From the NCBI GenBank assembly GCA_947169285.1, contig CAMVPB010000001.1, positions 203,226 to 267,225 of the forward strand: DNA of 64,000 nt. The letters are read 5' to 3'. How positions within the stretch are numbered: the first letter of the stretch is position 1; each line of letters begins with the position of its first letter. Shown piece by piece: positions 2,240 to 53,015 of the stretch. Below the pieces are notes generated by a model. The model ran no database searches. It worked only from the letters and a program-made list of their open reading frames with translations, and was not told the DNA's origin. A program made the translations under genes and the position numbers. The stretch comes from an uncultured bacterium (GTDB taxonomy: Bacteria > Bacillota_I > Bacilli_A > RF39 > UBA660).

Positions 2240-2284
2240 CCATGTGGAAGTGGAAAAAAATATAAAAAATGTTGTGGTAAATAA
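2240..2284 (+). repeat. SEC-C tail copy 2
   Basis: Encodes PCGSGKKYKKCCGK then TAA. An in-frame TAA at 2234-2236 closes the frame just upstream, so only the tail is present. It is the boundary between the methyltransferase cassette and the lipoprotein unit. Confidence 0.85.
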
Positions 2285-2330
2285 CTCGTAAACCTCGATA
2301 AAATAAGGGAAAACGCGAGTTTTTCTTTTT
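2283..2330 (+). terminator. Terminator after SEC-C tail 2
   Basis: AACTCG (2283-2288) pairs with CGAGTT (2316-2321), followed by a T-rich run. It overlaps the tail's stop codon and is related in sequence to the stems at 33 and 3936. Confidence 0.65.
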
Positions 2331-2354
2331 ATTAAAAAATACCTAAAATAAGGG

Positions 2355-2374
2355 CTGGAGCCATTCTGGAGCCA
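2355..2374 (+). repeat. Tandem CTGGAGCCA repeat (possible left arm, unit C)
   Basis: CTGGAGCCA occurs at 2355-2363 and 2366-2374, an 11-bp period like that of the cassette A arm. It occupies the same place relative to the SEC-C tail as the left repeats of cassettes A and B. I do not find a convincing partner at the right end of this unit. Confidence 0.5.
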
Positions 2375-2454
2375 CTTTGATTTAGATATTTGGCTATATT
2401 ACCATTTAAGATCGTAAAATTAGTAATATTCCGAACAAAATTATTTAAAGAATC

Positions 2455-2465
2455 TATGGTATAAT
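2455..2465 (+). promoter_or_regulatory. Extended -10 of lipoprotein gene
   Basis: TATGGTATAAT, identical to 1443-1453, lies 27 bp before the lipoprotein start. No clear -35 is visible. Confidence 0.55.
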
Positions 2466-2491
2466 GGTTATAGAATGTTAGGAGGATTGTA

Positions 2492-2977
2492 ATGAAAGAA
2501 AGAATATTAGTTAGTATATTAATAATTGTTTCAATTTTTATAATTCCAAGTTGTGATTTTAAAAATAATGATAATAAAATAAATAATAATGTGAACAGTA
2601 AAAAAGAAACTAAAGAAAAAGAAAGTAATTCAAATGAGGTGATTAATTCCGTGAAAGTAACAATCAATGGTAAACAATATACAATTCAATTAGAAAACAA
2701 TGAAACAGCTGAAAGTTTTGTTAATTTATTACCTCAAGAATTTAATATGAGTGAATTGAATGGAAATGAAAAATACATATATTTAGATACTACATTGCCA
2801 ACAAATTCATCTAATCCTAAACATATTAATTCTGGTGATGTAATGCTTTATGGAAATAATTGTTTAGTAATATTTTATAAGTCATTTGATACAAGCTATA
2901 GTTATACAATAATAGGCCATATTGATAATTTAGATAATTTAGGAAATGGAAATATAACTGCAAAATTTGAAAAATAA
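2492..2977 (+). CDS. Lipoprotein with cyclophilin-like domain
   Basis: A 161-residue secreted lipoprotein. Residues 1-20 are a signal peptide with a short lipobox ending at Cys21 (IIPSCDF), then an Asn/Lys/Glu-rich linker to about 55. Residues about 58-160 match the bacterial cyclophilin-like domain, with typical segments for VTINGKQY, the strand before the LPQEF turn, and GDVMLYGNNCLVIFYKSF. Whether such domains have prolyl isomerase activity is unclear. AGGAGG lies 7 bp upstream of the start. It is the first gene of the third SEC-C-bounded unit and is followed by another lipoprotein. Confidence 0.75.
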   Translation: MKERILVSILIIVSIFIIPSCDFKNNDNKINNNVNSKKETKEKESNSNEVINSVKVTINGKQYTIQLENNETAESFVNLLPQEFNMSELNGNEKYIYLDTTLPTNSSNPKHINSGDVMLYGNNCLVIFYKSFDTSYSYTIIGHIDNLDNLGNGNITAKFEK

Positions 2978-3002
2978 AAGAAAACGGAATATTAAGATAT
3001 TA

Positions 3003-3027
3003 GGAGAATGTAAAAATTCTCTTTTTA
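3003..3027 (+). terminator. Terminator between the two lipoprotein genes
   Basis: GAGAAT (3004-3009) and ATTCTC (3016-3021) form a short hairpin followed by TTTTT. A TATACT -10-like element follows at 3033-3038, so the next gene probably has its own promoter. Confidence 0.6.
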
Positions 3028-3058
3028 TGTGATATACTATATATGAGGTGAACTTATT

Positions 3059-3745
3059 ATGAAAAAAATGTTACTGCTATTATTTTCTTTAATATTATTG
3101 TTTAGTGTTACTGGATGTGGTTCTAATAGAGAAAAGCAAAATAACAATGGGCAACAAGAACAAAAATATGAAGAAAAAGAAAACAACAATCAACAAAACA
3201 ATTCAAACAATAATTATGTAGATGATGATGAAATTATTGAATTTGATAATGATGATAATGGTCCAACAGATGAAAAAACTGTGACTGTAGAAGAAGTAAT
3301 TAATTGTGATGGTTGTGTATATGCATATTTTAGTGATGAAGGTGATAAAGCAAAAACTTTAGGAGCCACTTTATCTCCTAGTGATTATACAAAGGATATC
3401 AACAATTTAAAAACAGCAGGAGGAAAACAAAGACATAATTTCTTTGGATTAGTACTTTCTGGTAATACAATATCAAGAGCATATGCGTGCGTATTAAAAG
3501 ATAATAAAATATATTGTATTGAAGGATCTACTAATGGTGCATATCATAATAGTAATATTGCCATTTTAAACAAAATATTTACTAATGGTCAATGTAAAAC
3601 TATTTCAGATGGGAACACTTATACTTGTACAGATGGTAGTTATAACGGTGATACAAAAACTAATGGATACACAAGTATGCATTATGAAACAAGTTGTACT
3701 ATCTATGGTGCAAATTCTAATACAGGAAAATTAATTTGCCATTAG
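3059..3745 (+). CDS. Lipoprotein of unknown function
   Basis: A 228-residue lipoprotein. A hydrophobic signal peptide ends in the lipobox VTGC (Cys about 20). It is followed by a Gln/Asn/Glu-rich low-complexity linker and a Cys-rich domain from about 80 (NCDGCVYAYF, ACVLKDNKIYC, CKTISDGNTYTC, SCTIYG, LIC) that may be disulphide-bonded outside the cell. I do not recognise the family; the globular part recalls the exposed domains of pilin-like or surface proteins. AGGTG lies upstream of the start. It is the second gene in the unit ending at SEC-C tail 3. Confidence 0.6.
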   Translation: MKKMLLLLFSLILLFSVTGCGSNREKQNNNGQQEQKYEEKENNNQQNNSNNNYVDDDEIIEFDNDDNGPTDEKTVTVEEVINCDGCVYAYFSDEGDKAKTLGATLSPSDYTKDINNLKTAGGKQRHNFFGLVLSGNTISRAYACVLKDNKIYCIEGSTNGAYHNSNIAILNKIFTNGQCKTISDGNTYTCTDGSYNGDTKTNGYTSMHYETSCTIYGANSNTGKLICH

Positions 3746-5444: not shown

Positions 5445-5909
5445 ATGAGTAAAATATTAGTGTGTTATTTTTCAGCAAGTGAAAATACAAAAAGTTTAGC
5501 AGAAAAAGTTGCATCAGCAGTAAATGGGGATTTGTTTGAGATAGAGCCAAAAGAAAAGTATACTAAAGAAGATTTAGACTGGATGAATAAACAAAGTAGA
5601 TCATCAATTGAAATGAATGAAAATATTAAACCAGAAATATTAAATAAGGTATCAAATTTAGGAGAGTATAATACAGTTTGTTTAGGATTCCCAATATGGT
5701 GGTATAAAGAACCAACTATTATCGATAAGTTTTTAGAAGAAAATGATATGACTAATAAGAAGGTTTATGTATTTGTGACAAGTGGATCATCTCCAATTGA
5801 TTCAACTTATAAAAGTTTAAGAAATAATTTTCCAAATTTAAATTTTATTGATGGTAAAAGATTTACTGGAAACGAAAATATAGAAGAATACATAAATTGG
5901 ATTGTTTAA
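5445..5909 (+). CDS. Flavodoxin
   Basis: 154-residue flavodoxin. The FMN phosphate loop FSASENTKSLA lies at residues 9-19, the aromatic FMN-stacking region at FPIWWYKEP (about 85-93), and a further loop at VTSGSSPID (about 110-119). It is probably an electron carrier or quinone/flavin reductase partner in the cytoplasm. AGGAGG and a TATAAT at 5414-5419 precede it. It starts a tight operon with glutathione peroxidase, luxS and a phosphatase. Confidence 0.9.
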   Translation: MSKILVCYFSASENTKSLAEKVASAVNGDLFEIEPKEKYTKEDLDWMNKQSRSSIEMNENIKPEILNKVSNLGEYNTVCLGFPIWWYKEPTIIDKFLEENDMTNKKVYVFVTSGSSPIDSTYKSLRNNFPNLNFIDGKRFTGNENIEEYINWIV

Positions 5910-5929: not shown

Positions 5930-6466
5930 ATGATTTACGATTATAAAATAAAGAACAGAAAGAATGAAGAAATATCTTTAAGTGATTTTAAAGGCAAAGT
6001 ATTAATAGTTGTTAATACTGCAACAGGATGTGGTTTCACTCCTCAATATGAAGGACTAGAATATTTATATAAAAAGTATCATGATAAGGGATTAGAAATA
6101 TTAGATTTTCCATGCAATCAATTTGGAAATCAAGCACCTGGAAGTGATGATGAAATCCATGAGTTTTGTGCATTAAAATATAATACATCATTTGATCAAT
6201 ATACTAAAGTTGATGTTAATGGTGAGAATGAAATACCAATATATACTTATTTAAAAGAACAAATTAAAGATGATAAAATATCTGGTTTAAAAAATAAAAT
6301 GGCTATGAAGGCTATTGAAAAAATAAGTACTTCAACTAAAAAAGATGGAGATATAAGATGGAATTTTACAAAATTCTTAGTTGATAGAAATGGAAAAGTA
6401 GTAGAAAGATATTCTCCAACTTATAAACCAGAAGATATGGAAGCAGATATTTGTAGAATTTTATGA
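5930..6466 (+). CDS. Glutathione peroxidase family peroxidase
   Basis: 178 residues; reduces hydroperoxides, in bacteria often with thioredoxin as donor. The peroxidatic residue is Cys34 (TATGCGFTPQYEGL) rather than selenocysteine; the family motif FPCNQFGNQAPG follows, and WNFTKFLVDRNG carries the conserved Trp-Asn. I chose ATG 5930, preceded by GTGGTG, because it gives the family N-terminus (YDYKIKNRKNEEISL); an in-frame ATG at 5897 would add eleven atypical residues and overlap the flavodoxin end. Part of an oxidative-stress-flavoured operon. Confidence 0.9.
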   Translation: MIYDYKIKNRKNEEISLSDFKGKVLIVVNTATGCGFTPQYEGLEYLYKKYHDKGLEILDFPCNQFGNQAPGSDDEIHEFCALKYNTSFDQYTKVDVNGENEIPIYTYLKEQIKDDKISGLKNKMAMKAIEKISTSTKKDGDIRWNFTKFLVDRNGKVVERYSPTYKPEDMEADICRIL

Positions 6467-23419: not shown

Positions 23420-24724
23420 ATGGAAGAAAAAGAATTAACAAAGAGTAATAAAATAAAGATAATAGTATTAACTGCATTAGTATTCTTAGTAGCAATCGCA
23501 GGAATATCATATGCATATTTCACAATACAAATAACTGGTAATGATACAGCAAGTTCAATGAGATTAACAACAGCAAATATGAGTTTAGTATATACAGATA
23601 TAGAAATAAGAAGTGGAGAGAATGTAACACCACCATGGAGTAGTACACCAAAGACAATAACAGTATATAATAATGGAAATACAACAGCATACTATAACAT
23701 CATATGGAGAGACTTATATAATGAAATTACTAACAATGAATTAGTAATATCAGCAACTTGCTCATCTTCATTAGGAAGCTGTAATAATATAACAGAAACA
23801 GTAATACCAACAGAAACAACTTTAGCACATAATATATCAGTAAAAAAGAATATAGAAATACCAGTAGGAGTAACACACACATATACAGTGACAGTTACAT
23901 TCAAAGAAACAGGGTCTAATCAAAACTACAATCAAGATAAAGAATTTTATGGAACACTAAATATAGCAGAAGGGAAAGAACCTGCTAATATAACAAGAGC
24001 AGGTACAGATGCAACAACTGGATTACCAGTAGTAAAGATAGATAACGAAGAATTTTATGATATAACAAATGCAATAAACTATAGTTCACTAATATCAACA
24101 AATGGAAACAAATATAATTATGATTCAAACAAGTCTATACTATTAGCAAAATATAATTTATATGTAGGACAAACATGTACAAGTTCAAGTTCATGTACAC
24201 CAATATCAACATCAGCGACAGGATATGGATTGCAAAGTGCAGATGCAAAGGGGGATACAGGTACATATCCATCAGTAGGAGTAGTACCATTTTCAGGCTC
24301 AAGTACTTCTAATGGATATTGGTATGATAGTGCAAATAGTACAATATATTCAAAATATGGAACATCATATGATGCAAGTAATATATATGATACAGATTAT
24401 ATAACAGCACCAAACTATAGTATAGCATTCAATAATAACGCAGGAAATGCAAATTACAGTATAGCATATTATGTAGAAGAATATGTAGATAGATTAGGAA
24501 TAGAAGGAGAAGGAAGGCTGTTAACATATACAGAAGCAAATGCAATGGCACAAGCACAAAGAGCAAATGGAGCCCGTTATTGGTTGGGTTCGGCTTGCAA
24601 CTTTAACGACGTGTGGTATGTGGGCTCTGTTGGCAGCGTTCGCAACAGCAACTACTTTGCGTATGGCGACGACGTCGGTGTTCGCCCAGTTATAGTTGTC
24701 TCAACATCTGATATCGGTGCGTAA
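23420..24724 (+). CDS. TasA/CalY-like surface protein with GVRP lectin-like C-terminus
   Basis: 434 residues. A membrane/signal segment (about 13-34, VFLVAIAGISYAYF) is followed by a TasA/camelysin-like beta domain (about 38-190) sharing ISATCSS, HTYTVTV and FYGTLNI features with the protein at 38982. A low-complexity Ser/Thr region follows, then a C-terminal domain with RYWLGSA, NDVWYVGSVGS and GVRPVIVV, the arrangement of C-type-lectin/formylglycine-enzyme-like domains that serve as variable ends in many gut bacteria. Codons change sharply at about 24570, from AT-rich to about 52% GC (see separate entry). Probably cell-surface; ligand unknown. Confidence 0.75.
   Translation: MEEKELTKSNKIKIIVLTALVFLVAIAGISYAYFTIQITGNDTASSMRLTTANMSLVYTDIEIRSGENVTPPWSSTPKTITVYNNGNTTAYYNIIWRDLYNEITNNELVISATCSSSLGSCNNITETVIPTETTLAHNISVKKNIEIPVGVTHTYTVTVTFKETGSNQNYNQDKEFYGTLNIAEGKEPANITRAGTDATTGLPVVKIDNEEFYDITNAINYSSLISTNGNKYNYDSNKSILLAKYNLYVGQTCTSSSSCTPISTSATGYGLQSADAKGDTGTYPSVGVVPFSGSSTSNGYWYDSANSTIYSKYGTSYDASNIYDTDYITAPNYSIAFNNNAGNANYSIAYYVEEYVDRLGIEGEGRLLTYTEANAMAQAQRANGARYWLGSACNFNDVWYVGSVGSVRNSNYFAYGDDVGVRPVIVVSTSDIGA
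24569..24724 (+). other. GC-rich 3' segment of the surface gene (variable-region candidate)
   Basis: By hand count 81 of 156 bases are G or C, against about a third in the preceding stretch and in most neighbours. The segment encodes the lectin-like end from about ARYWLGSA to GVRPVI and the stop, with repeated AAC and AGC codons at positions that vary in known variable proteins. The sharp boundary inside a gene suggests replacement of the 3' end by gene conversion, transfer, or a diversity-generating retroelement. No template copy or reverse transcriptase is seen in the window. Confidence 0.6.
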
Positions 24725-24765
24725 GCACCTAGGAGCGAATTTTCGAAAGAATTTCGGTCCCGCCC

Positions 24766-24811
24766 AAAATTTTTGTGGTCACGAATATCCACGGAGTGGT
24801 TCAAAAATTTT
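24766..24811 (+). repeat. Long inverted repeat downstream of the surface gene
   Basis: AAAATTTTTG (24766-24775) pairs with CAAAAATTTT (24802-24811), with an inner CAC/GTG. It lies 42 bp after the surface gene in a GC-rich, non-coding stretch. It could act as a terminator or as a DNA structure downstream of the variable segment. Confidence 0.65.
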
Positions 24812-24820
24812 ATAGTAATA

Positions 24821-24834
24821 CGCCCATTAGGGCG
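24821..24834 (+). repeat. Small GC hairpin
   Basis: CGCCC-ATTA-GGGCG, a 5-bp stem with a 4-base loop, without U tract. Small hairpins with four-base loops are found downstream of variable repeats in retroelement systems, but this one is short. Confidence 0.5.
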
Positions 24835-24858
24835 AGAATTAAATTTTGGTATTATTTA

Positions 24859-24890
24859 AAAAAGTTTTAGGATTTTTCCTAAAACTTTTT
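24859..24890. terminator. Bidirectional terminator between surface gene and clpP
   Basis: AAAAAGTTTTAGGA and TCCTAAAACTTTTT (arms 24859-24872 and 24877-24890) with T runs on both strands, serving the converging genes. Confidence 0.92.
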
Positions 24891-52392: not shown

Positions 52393-53015
52393 TGGCAAAG
52401 ATTAGCGTTTTAAGTCTTAAAGGTGAAAAAACATCTGACTTAACTTTAGATAAAAATATTTGGGATGCTGAAGTTAATGAAAAAGTATTAACTGATGCTA
52501 TTAACTTAACACTTGCTTCTTTAAGACAAGGTACTCATAGTACTAAAACAAGAGGAGAAGTTAGTGGTGGAGGTCGTAAACCTTGGAAACAAAAAGGAAC
52601 AGGTAGAGCTCGTCAAGGATCTACCAGAGCTGTTCAATGGCCAGGTGGAGGTATTGCATTCGGACCTACTCCAAGAAGTTATGACAAAAAGATGAATAAA
52701 AAATCTAGAAGATTAGCTTTAATATCTGCTTTATCTTCTAAATATCAAAATAAAGAATTAGTTGTAGTTGAAAACTTTGATTTAAAAACTAATAAAACTA
52801 AAGACTTAAATGAAATATTAAAATGTTTAAAAGTTAATAACACTGCTTTATTAGTAAGTATTGATGAAAACGTTAATTTAAATTTAGCTTCTAGAAACAA
52901 TGAAAACTTAGCATATTTAAATGTTGAAGGTATCAATGTTTTAGATATAGTTAGAAATAATAACTTAGTAATTGATGAAAAGAGTGTTAAGAAATTAGAG
53001 GAGGTGCTTAAATAA
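52392..53015 (+). CDS. rplD: 50S ribosomal protein L4
   Basis: 207 residues. The tentacle loop is GEVSGGGRKPWKQKGTGRAR followed by QGSTRAVQWPGGG. In other bacteria L4 represses the S10 operon through its leader. One-base overlaps with rplC and rplW (TAATG) imply translational coupling. Confidence 0.98.
   Translation: MAKISVLSLKGEKTSDLTLDKNIWDAEVNEKVLTDAINLTLASLRQGTHSTKTRGEVSGGGRKPWKQKGTGRARQGSTRAVQWPGGGIAFGPTPRSYDKKMNKKSRRLALISALSSKYQNKELVVVENFDLKTNKTKDLNEILKCLKVNNTALLVSIDENVNLNLASRNNENLAYLNVEGINVLDIVRNNNLVIDEKSVKKLEEVLK

Follow-up and report, generated by a model that had tools for sequence, protein, structure and literature searches.

Why does a surface-protein gene in a genome of low GC content end in GC-rich DNA, and what has written that end? 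The gene in question (23420..24724, + strand; an ORF of 434 aa) lies in a 64,000-nucleotide stretch of an uncultured, Bacilli-type genome, hereafter the window. It encodes an N-terminal membrane/signal segment, a TasA/camelysin-like middle, and a C-terminal lectin-like domain that carries the segment of interest. The initial annotation, made from the letters alone, proposed that this 3′ end is rewritten by a diversity-generating retroelement (DGR). Analysis of the genome bears out the proposal, as a template repeat (TR), adenine-biased differences, and a reverse transcriptase (RT) of DGR type are all present in it. The GC-rich segment is read here as a DGR variable repeat (VR), whose template RNA is copied by an error-prone DGR RT; we put the probability of this reading at roughly 0.88, and the mechanism class itself is well supported.

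The GC-rich 3′ segment and its gene

The last 156 bp of the gene (24569-24724) hold 81 G or C letters (0.519), exactly the count originally reported. GC content is 0.304 in the preceding part of the gene (23420-24568) and 0.267 across the window as a whole, in keeping with the low GC content described for the remainder. The sharp internal boundary that had been noted is located at approximately 24572-24578. Segments of 156 bp with a GC content of at least 0.519 number 37 in the window, with starts at 24530-24611 and every one overlapping this site; the best sampled segment elsewhere, near 52536, reached 0.44.

Paralogues of the target gene, 64-69% identical, are found on contigs C12, C3, and C14. 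Four of five paralogues match Peptidase_M73 (best 5e-05), and the window's own protein falls below the cut-off. For the target end, a single-sequence AlphaFold model had a pLDDT of 31 and was not usable, a PDB search returned no match, and DUF6273 gave a sub-threshold match in one paralogue only. The motif YWLGSA...GVRPV is no more than suggestive of a C-type lectin fold, for which the target end is a candidate.

The GC-richness of the segment can be traced to its template. The template repeat TR2, described below, has a GC content of 43%, and in the VRs (54-58% GC) template A is replaced mostly by G or T; the composition of TR2 and the replacement of its adenines together account for the difference. 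Two negative controls are available: a paralogue at C1:178322 with the same protein motif and no VR has 39% GC, and a sister species without the RT has an AT-rich version of the lectin-like end (34% GC). The C1:178322 region (L018 982-2124) encodes a pilin-like protein with an N-terminal methylation motif and a lectin-like end of the DGR-target type, lacking a GC-rich VR.

A remote template and adenine-biased repeats

The own-genome search, with positions 24560-24860 as the query against the 981-kb assembly (16 contigs, 90.7% complete), detected four further places: C12:1431-1710, C12:1767-1871, C3:52657-52802, and C14:3260-3390. Three of these correspond to the 3′-terminal parts of ORFs that are paralogues of the window gene, so that further copies of the GC-rich end, as had been anticipated, do exist. 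The fourth, delimited as C12:1763-1870, is non-coding and AAC-rich; this is TR2, which in the target frame reads FWLGSANNNNNVWNVNSDDNLNNNNFANGNNNGVRP. The second copy on which the initial annotation had staked its proposal is therefore present in the genome.

The VR of the window gene (24578..24688, + strand) is homologous to TR2 over its length, with one extra codon. Its 3′ end, GTTCGCCCA (24680..24688, + strand), is nearly invariant in the alignment of TR2 with all four VRs and, by analogy with known DGRs, is a candidate initiation-of-mutagenic-homing (IMH) element. TR2 was compared with each VR by codon alignment, with gaps placed so as to minimise mismatches at bases other than adenine, and the counts were evaluated by one-sided Fisher tests. 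In the window VR, 19 of 36 template adenines are changed and 9 of 72 other bases (p=1.4e-5), which is the A-to-N pattern that had been foreseen. The remaining VRs show the same bias: C12, 20/36 versus 4/72 (p=1.2e-8); C3, 23/36 versus 5/72 (p=5.5e-10); and C14, 23/35 versus 8/70 (p=2.1e-8). Across the four, 53-66% of template adenines are changed versus 6-13% of other bases, and adenines make up 0.68-0.83 of the TR2/VR mismatches. The reading frame is open in each of the four VRs, and the adenine columns are hypervariable. When the C12 and window VRs are compared directly, they differ at 24 of 36 template-A columns and at 5 of 72 others; upstream of these two VRs, the middle part of the coding sequence is only about 50-60% alike. 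As judged from the repeats themselves, this pattern of differences is that of DGR mutagenic homing.

Because the window VR carries nine non-A mismatches and a 3-nt insertion relative to TR2, the exact template of this VR is not TR2 in its assembled form. The window and C12 VRs also have three synonymous non-A differences in common that are absent from the C3 VR, which would imply an altered or a second template.

Structured DNA downstream of the variable repeat

The initial annotation also described structured DNA downstream. Indeed, positions 24690-24850 fold at -27.3 kcal/mol, as opposed to -14.0 +/- 2.5 for shuffled sequences (z -5.3). DNA folding places hairpins at 24716-24729 and approximately 24821-24834, and this 3′ flank also holds a 10-bp inverted repeat (24766-24775/24802-24811). 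The hairpin GGTGC-GTAA-GCACC (24716..24729, + strand) lies 27 bp downstream of the VR, spans the stop codon, is nearly kept in the flank alignment with the C12 paralogue, and is a candidate target-recognition hairpin. Phage DGR target hairpins have GC-rich stems of 7-10 bp and a GRNA loop and lie 4-34 bp from the VR (PMC3240598); the hairpin of the window gene has the right position, but its stem is shorter (5 bp) and its loop is GTAA rather than GRNA.

The structured 3′ flank (24730..24858, + strand) is about 90% alike with the C12 locus over the aligned part, up to GGTATTATTT. Beyond this point the C12 sequence runs on into TR2, whereas that of the window does not; the window locus is thus a target-only copy.

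The TR2 locus

The gene order on C12 is the end of a miaA-like gene, a target gene (204-1574), TR2, a dinD-like gene (2275-3087; NF008573 at 3.6e-107), and other genes, among them what we take, from their sequences, to be a UvrC-like nuclease and aminoacyl-tRNA synthetases. The contig is 25 kb long, with 1.7 kb before TR2 and 23 kb after it, and it carries no RT. Since remote parts are known in DGRs, the missing RT rules out the compact cassette form only.

Downstream of TR2 come a 3′ domain and then a 14-bp terminator hairpin at C12:2035-2066. The 3′ domain folds better than its shuffles (z -2.9); immediately ahead of ACAAG, it contains an 8-bp stem, TTTTCATG/CATGAAAA (shuffle p=0.007). Among 14 templates of the family that carry the motif, 8 have a stem of 7 bp or more, differing in sequence, at this place, as opposed to an expectation of 0.3, indicating that the helix is preserved as its sequence varies. 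The P1 helix, the terminator, and the motif TTAGTAG...CGAA are all intact. TR2 thus resembles a template RNA gene that stands on its own, composed of a template, a conserved 3′ RNA domain, and a terminator. Its alignment to the Rfam family RT-14 (RF02921) is full-length and at the expected place, at 19.3 bits versus a gathering threshold of 48.1; TR2 therefore resembles RT-14 weakly and is not a member.

Between TR2 and the dinD-like gene on C12 (L008, approximately 2140-2250) lies one copy of a dispersed repeat (...AAAAGTGTTTTAAGAAAAAAGTGGCGATAATAATTATAG...) that is about 60-110 bp long and intergenic. It occurs in at least nine copies, the others being at C12:15652, C14:4669, C11:23795, C4:10542, C2:130725, C10:20365, C7:5787, and C3:7569, and is also found in the sister species.

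A complete DGR elsewhere in the genome

A search with PF00078 for the DGR-type RT suggested by the initial annotation identified one RT, on contig C2, with a DGR signature (GLSIGAMTSQ...YMDD; phrog_1423 at 3.2e-77). In a phylogenetic tree, it groups with the DGR-type RTs of relatives in a clade with 100/99 support. Its neighbourhood is a complete DGR (L002 3756-7901), comprising a paralogous target with VR1 (5947-6069), TR1 (5528-5650), a 133-aa Avd-like ORF, and the RT. The ORF upstream of the RT matches Avd weakly (phrog_3206, E 0.3; NF033474, E 0.03), and its equivalents in relatives match phrog_3206 at 1e-7 and 1e-11. TR1 and VR1 differ at 20 of 37 adenines and at just 3 of 86 other bases; from the latter figure, the C2 DGR has probably been active more recently than the TR2 group. 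TR1 has no match to RT-14, and a 3′ domain unlike that of TR2 is common to the templates in the clade of the C2 RT. The resident RT and TR2 thus appear to be of different types.

Templates with and without an RT in relatives

DGR-like RTs are encoded in 79 of 193 genomes of the bacterial family, and RT-14 matches occur in 24 of 193. An RT adjoins the RT-14 match in 24 of the 30 loci fetched; the DGR template transcript has RT-14 as its 3′ domain in this family. The template closest to TR2 is an RT-linked one in relative G076 (RT-14 at 43 bits), with DNA similarity that reaches 120 nt past the TR. Other templates stand without an RT. On contig C20 of G182, a target, a template, and the RNA domain are followed by a glmS-like gene. 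On contig C9 of G136, the accessory genes and the template are kept and the RT is gone; the RNA domain here is nearly identical to that of an intact DGR on contig C1 of the same genome. In G153 (96% complete), templates and VRs are spread over several contigs, and no DGR RT was found in the assembly. RT-less templates are thus recurrent among the relatives, through loss, service in trans, or both.

Rfam models at the gathering threshold returned nothing in the loci of 15 relatives; a model of the RT-14 core based on sequence only (R1) gave chance-level matches on the loci and missed TR2, being too weak; and an automatic alignment of the core yielded no consensus fold. Weak RT-14 matches on G007 C2 and G031 C6 have no template beside them and are probably false. 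Viral contigs contained no relative of the target gene and four distant RTs (26-33% identity), and a scan of genome contigs detected one distant locus, in a Bacilli MAG from goat cecum.

Some loci in the relatives are hybrid in form. On contig C2 of G182 (L154 1-1700), the variable end of a target continues straight into the 3′ RNA domain of a template, as if target and template had recombined. The starts of contigs C19 and C8 of G153 (L136 1-258 and L105 1-260) join a template-like 5′ leader to a VR-like 3′ end; these may be either real hybrids or assembly breaks, and C8:1 and C19:1 were not counted among intact templates.

What writes the variable repeats?

In the proposed mechanism, template RNA of the TR2 type, whose remote copy lies on C12, would be copied by an error-prone DGR RT that misreads adenines; the mutated cDNA would then replace the 3′ ends of the window gene and no fewer than three paralogues. 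The lectin-like tips of surface proteins would thereby be rewritten and the scaffold kept. We infer that an RT made the A-to-N changes, that writing occurs in trans, and that the tips bind ligands. An origin without reverse transcription is highly improbable. At their 5′ ends, the window gene and its C12 paralogue are 98-100% identical, indicating that gene conversion does occur, and ordinary recombination could in principle exchange 3′ cassettes; yet the differences concentrate at template adenines and a non-coding, AAC-rich template exists. Recombining cassettes alone are contradicted by the adenine bias, and a foreign GC-rich insertion is rejected, as the patch aligns to a template in its own genome.

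Within the DGR reading, the present writer of TR2 could be the C2 RT, a second RT in unassembled sequence, or none any longer. TR2 may be a relic that has lost its own RT, with the dinD-like gene now in a position that a DGR RT could occupy and the four VRs as fossils of past diversification, an option we hold tentatively and at less than even odds. The absence of an adjoining RT from the 23 kb downstream, a 3′ RNA domain unlike that of the resident RT's TR1, and 4-9 non-A mismatches per VR, compared with 3/86 in TR1/VR1, are consistent with such decay; the G136 C9 locus exemplifies RT deletion with the TR kept, and RT loss has been reported in Thiohalocapsa (PMC10907252). A relic is harder to reconcile with the intact helix, terminator, and motif of TR2 and with four VRs that all remain open and hypervariable at adenine columns. 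Alternatively, the C2 RT, together with its Avd-like protein, may reverse-transcribe both TR1 and the free-standing TR2 RNA. It is the sole RT found in the genome, the RT-less template of G136 has nearly the RNA domain of that genome's intact DGR, and diversification in trans has been inferred elsewhere (PMC10907252); the different 3′ domain of the templates in the C2 RT's clade argues against such sharing, which we regard as rather doubtful. Equally doubtful is service by a second DGR RT of the G076 type hidden in the roughly 9% of the genome that is unassembled. The incomplete, 16-contig assembly leaves room for one, and the closest template to TR2 is the RT-linked one of G076, but no RT fragment was found in the assembly, and the more complete G153 likewise has RT-less templates and no DGR RT.

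Relation to known systems and biological meaning

With DGRs of the Bordetella phage BPP-1 type and those of bacterial chromosomes, the present system shares an adenine-specific TR/VR pair, an RT with the DGR signature, an upstream Avd-like gene, a GC-rich 3′ end of the VR, a candidate downstream hairpin, and a lectin-like surface target. It differs in that this VR has its template on a different contig, where no RT adjoins it, the targets are four and dispersed, and a second, complete DGR with another template resides in the same genome. Remote DGR targets have been described in Treponema denticola (PMC4891356), and DGR loci without an RT, with activity in trans inferred, in Thiohalocapsa PB-PSB1 (PMC10907252). 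Targets far from the RT, RT-lost loci, and inferred activity in trans are common to these and the present case; the RT-less unit here, however, resembles a compact gene for template RNA that has a terminator of its own, and the type of its RNA domain differs from that of the resident RT. In view of the defining repeats and enzyme, the system is a DGR, and its split layout is a variant of unusual architecture.

The structured 3′ spacer of a DGR template recruits RT-Avd (PMC12875486). It is conceivable, albeit unlikely on present evidence, that templates in this bacterial family are separate, portable RNA genes, with one DGR RT diversifying dispersed surface genes in trans from several scattered RT-less templates. 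A large survey of DGRs accepted only repeats that lay within 1 kb of an RT and had a partner within 20 kb, and its authors state that remote targets would escape it (PMC8144416). RT-less templates with their own targets escape such surveys, and hypermutated genes would consequently be under-counted. If service in trans holds true, recognition of templates by the RT, with two RNA domain types and one enzyme, would be directly testable. A commensal of about 1 Mb appears to maintain a complete DGR and, apart from it, a template that has four or more targets dispersed in the genome, which is a large investment in surface variation.
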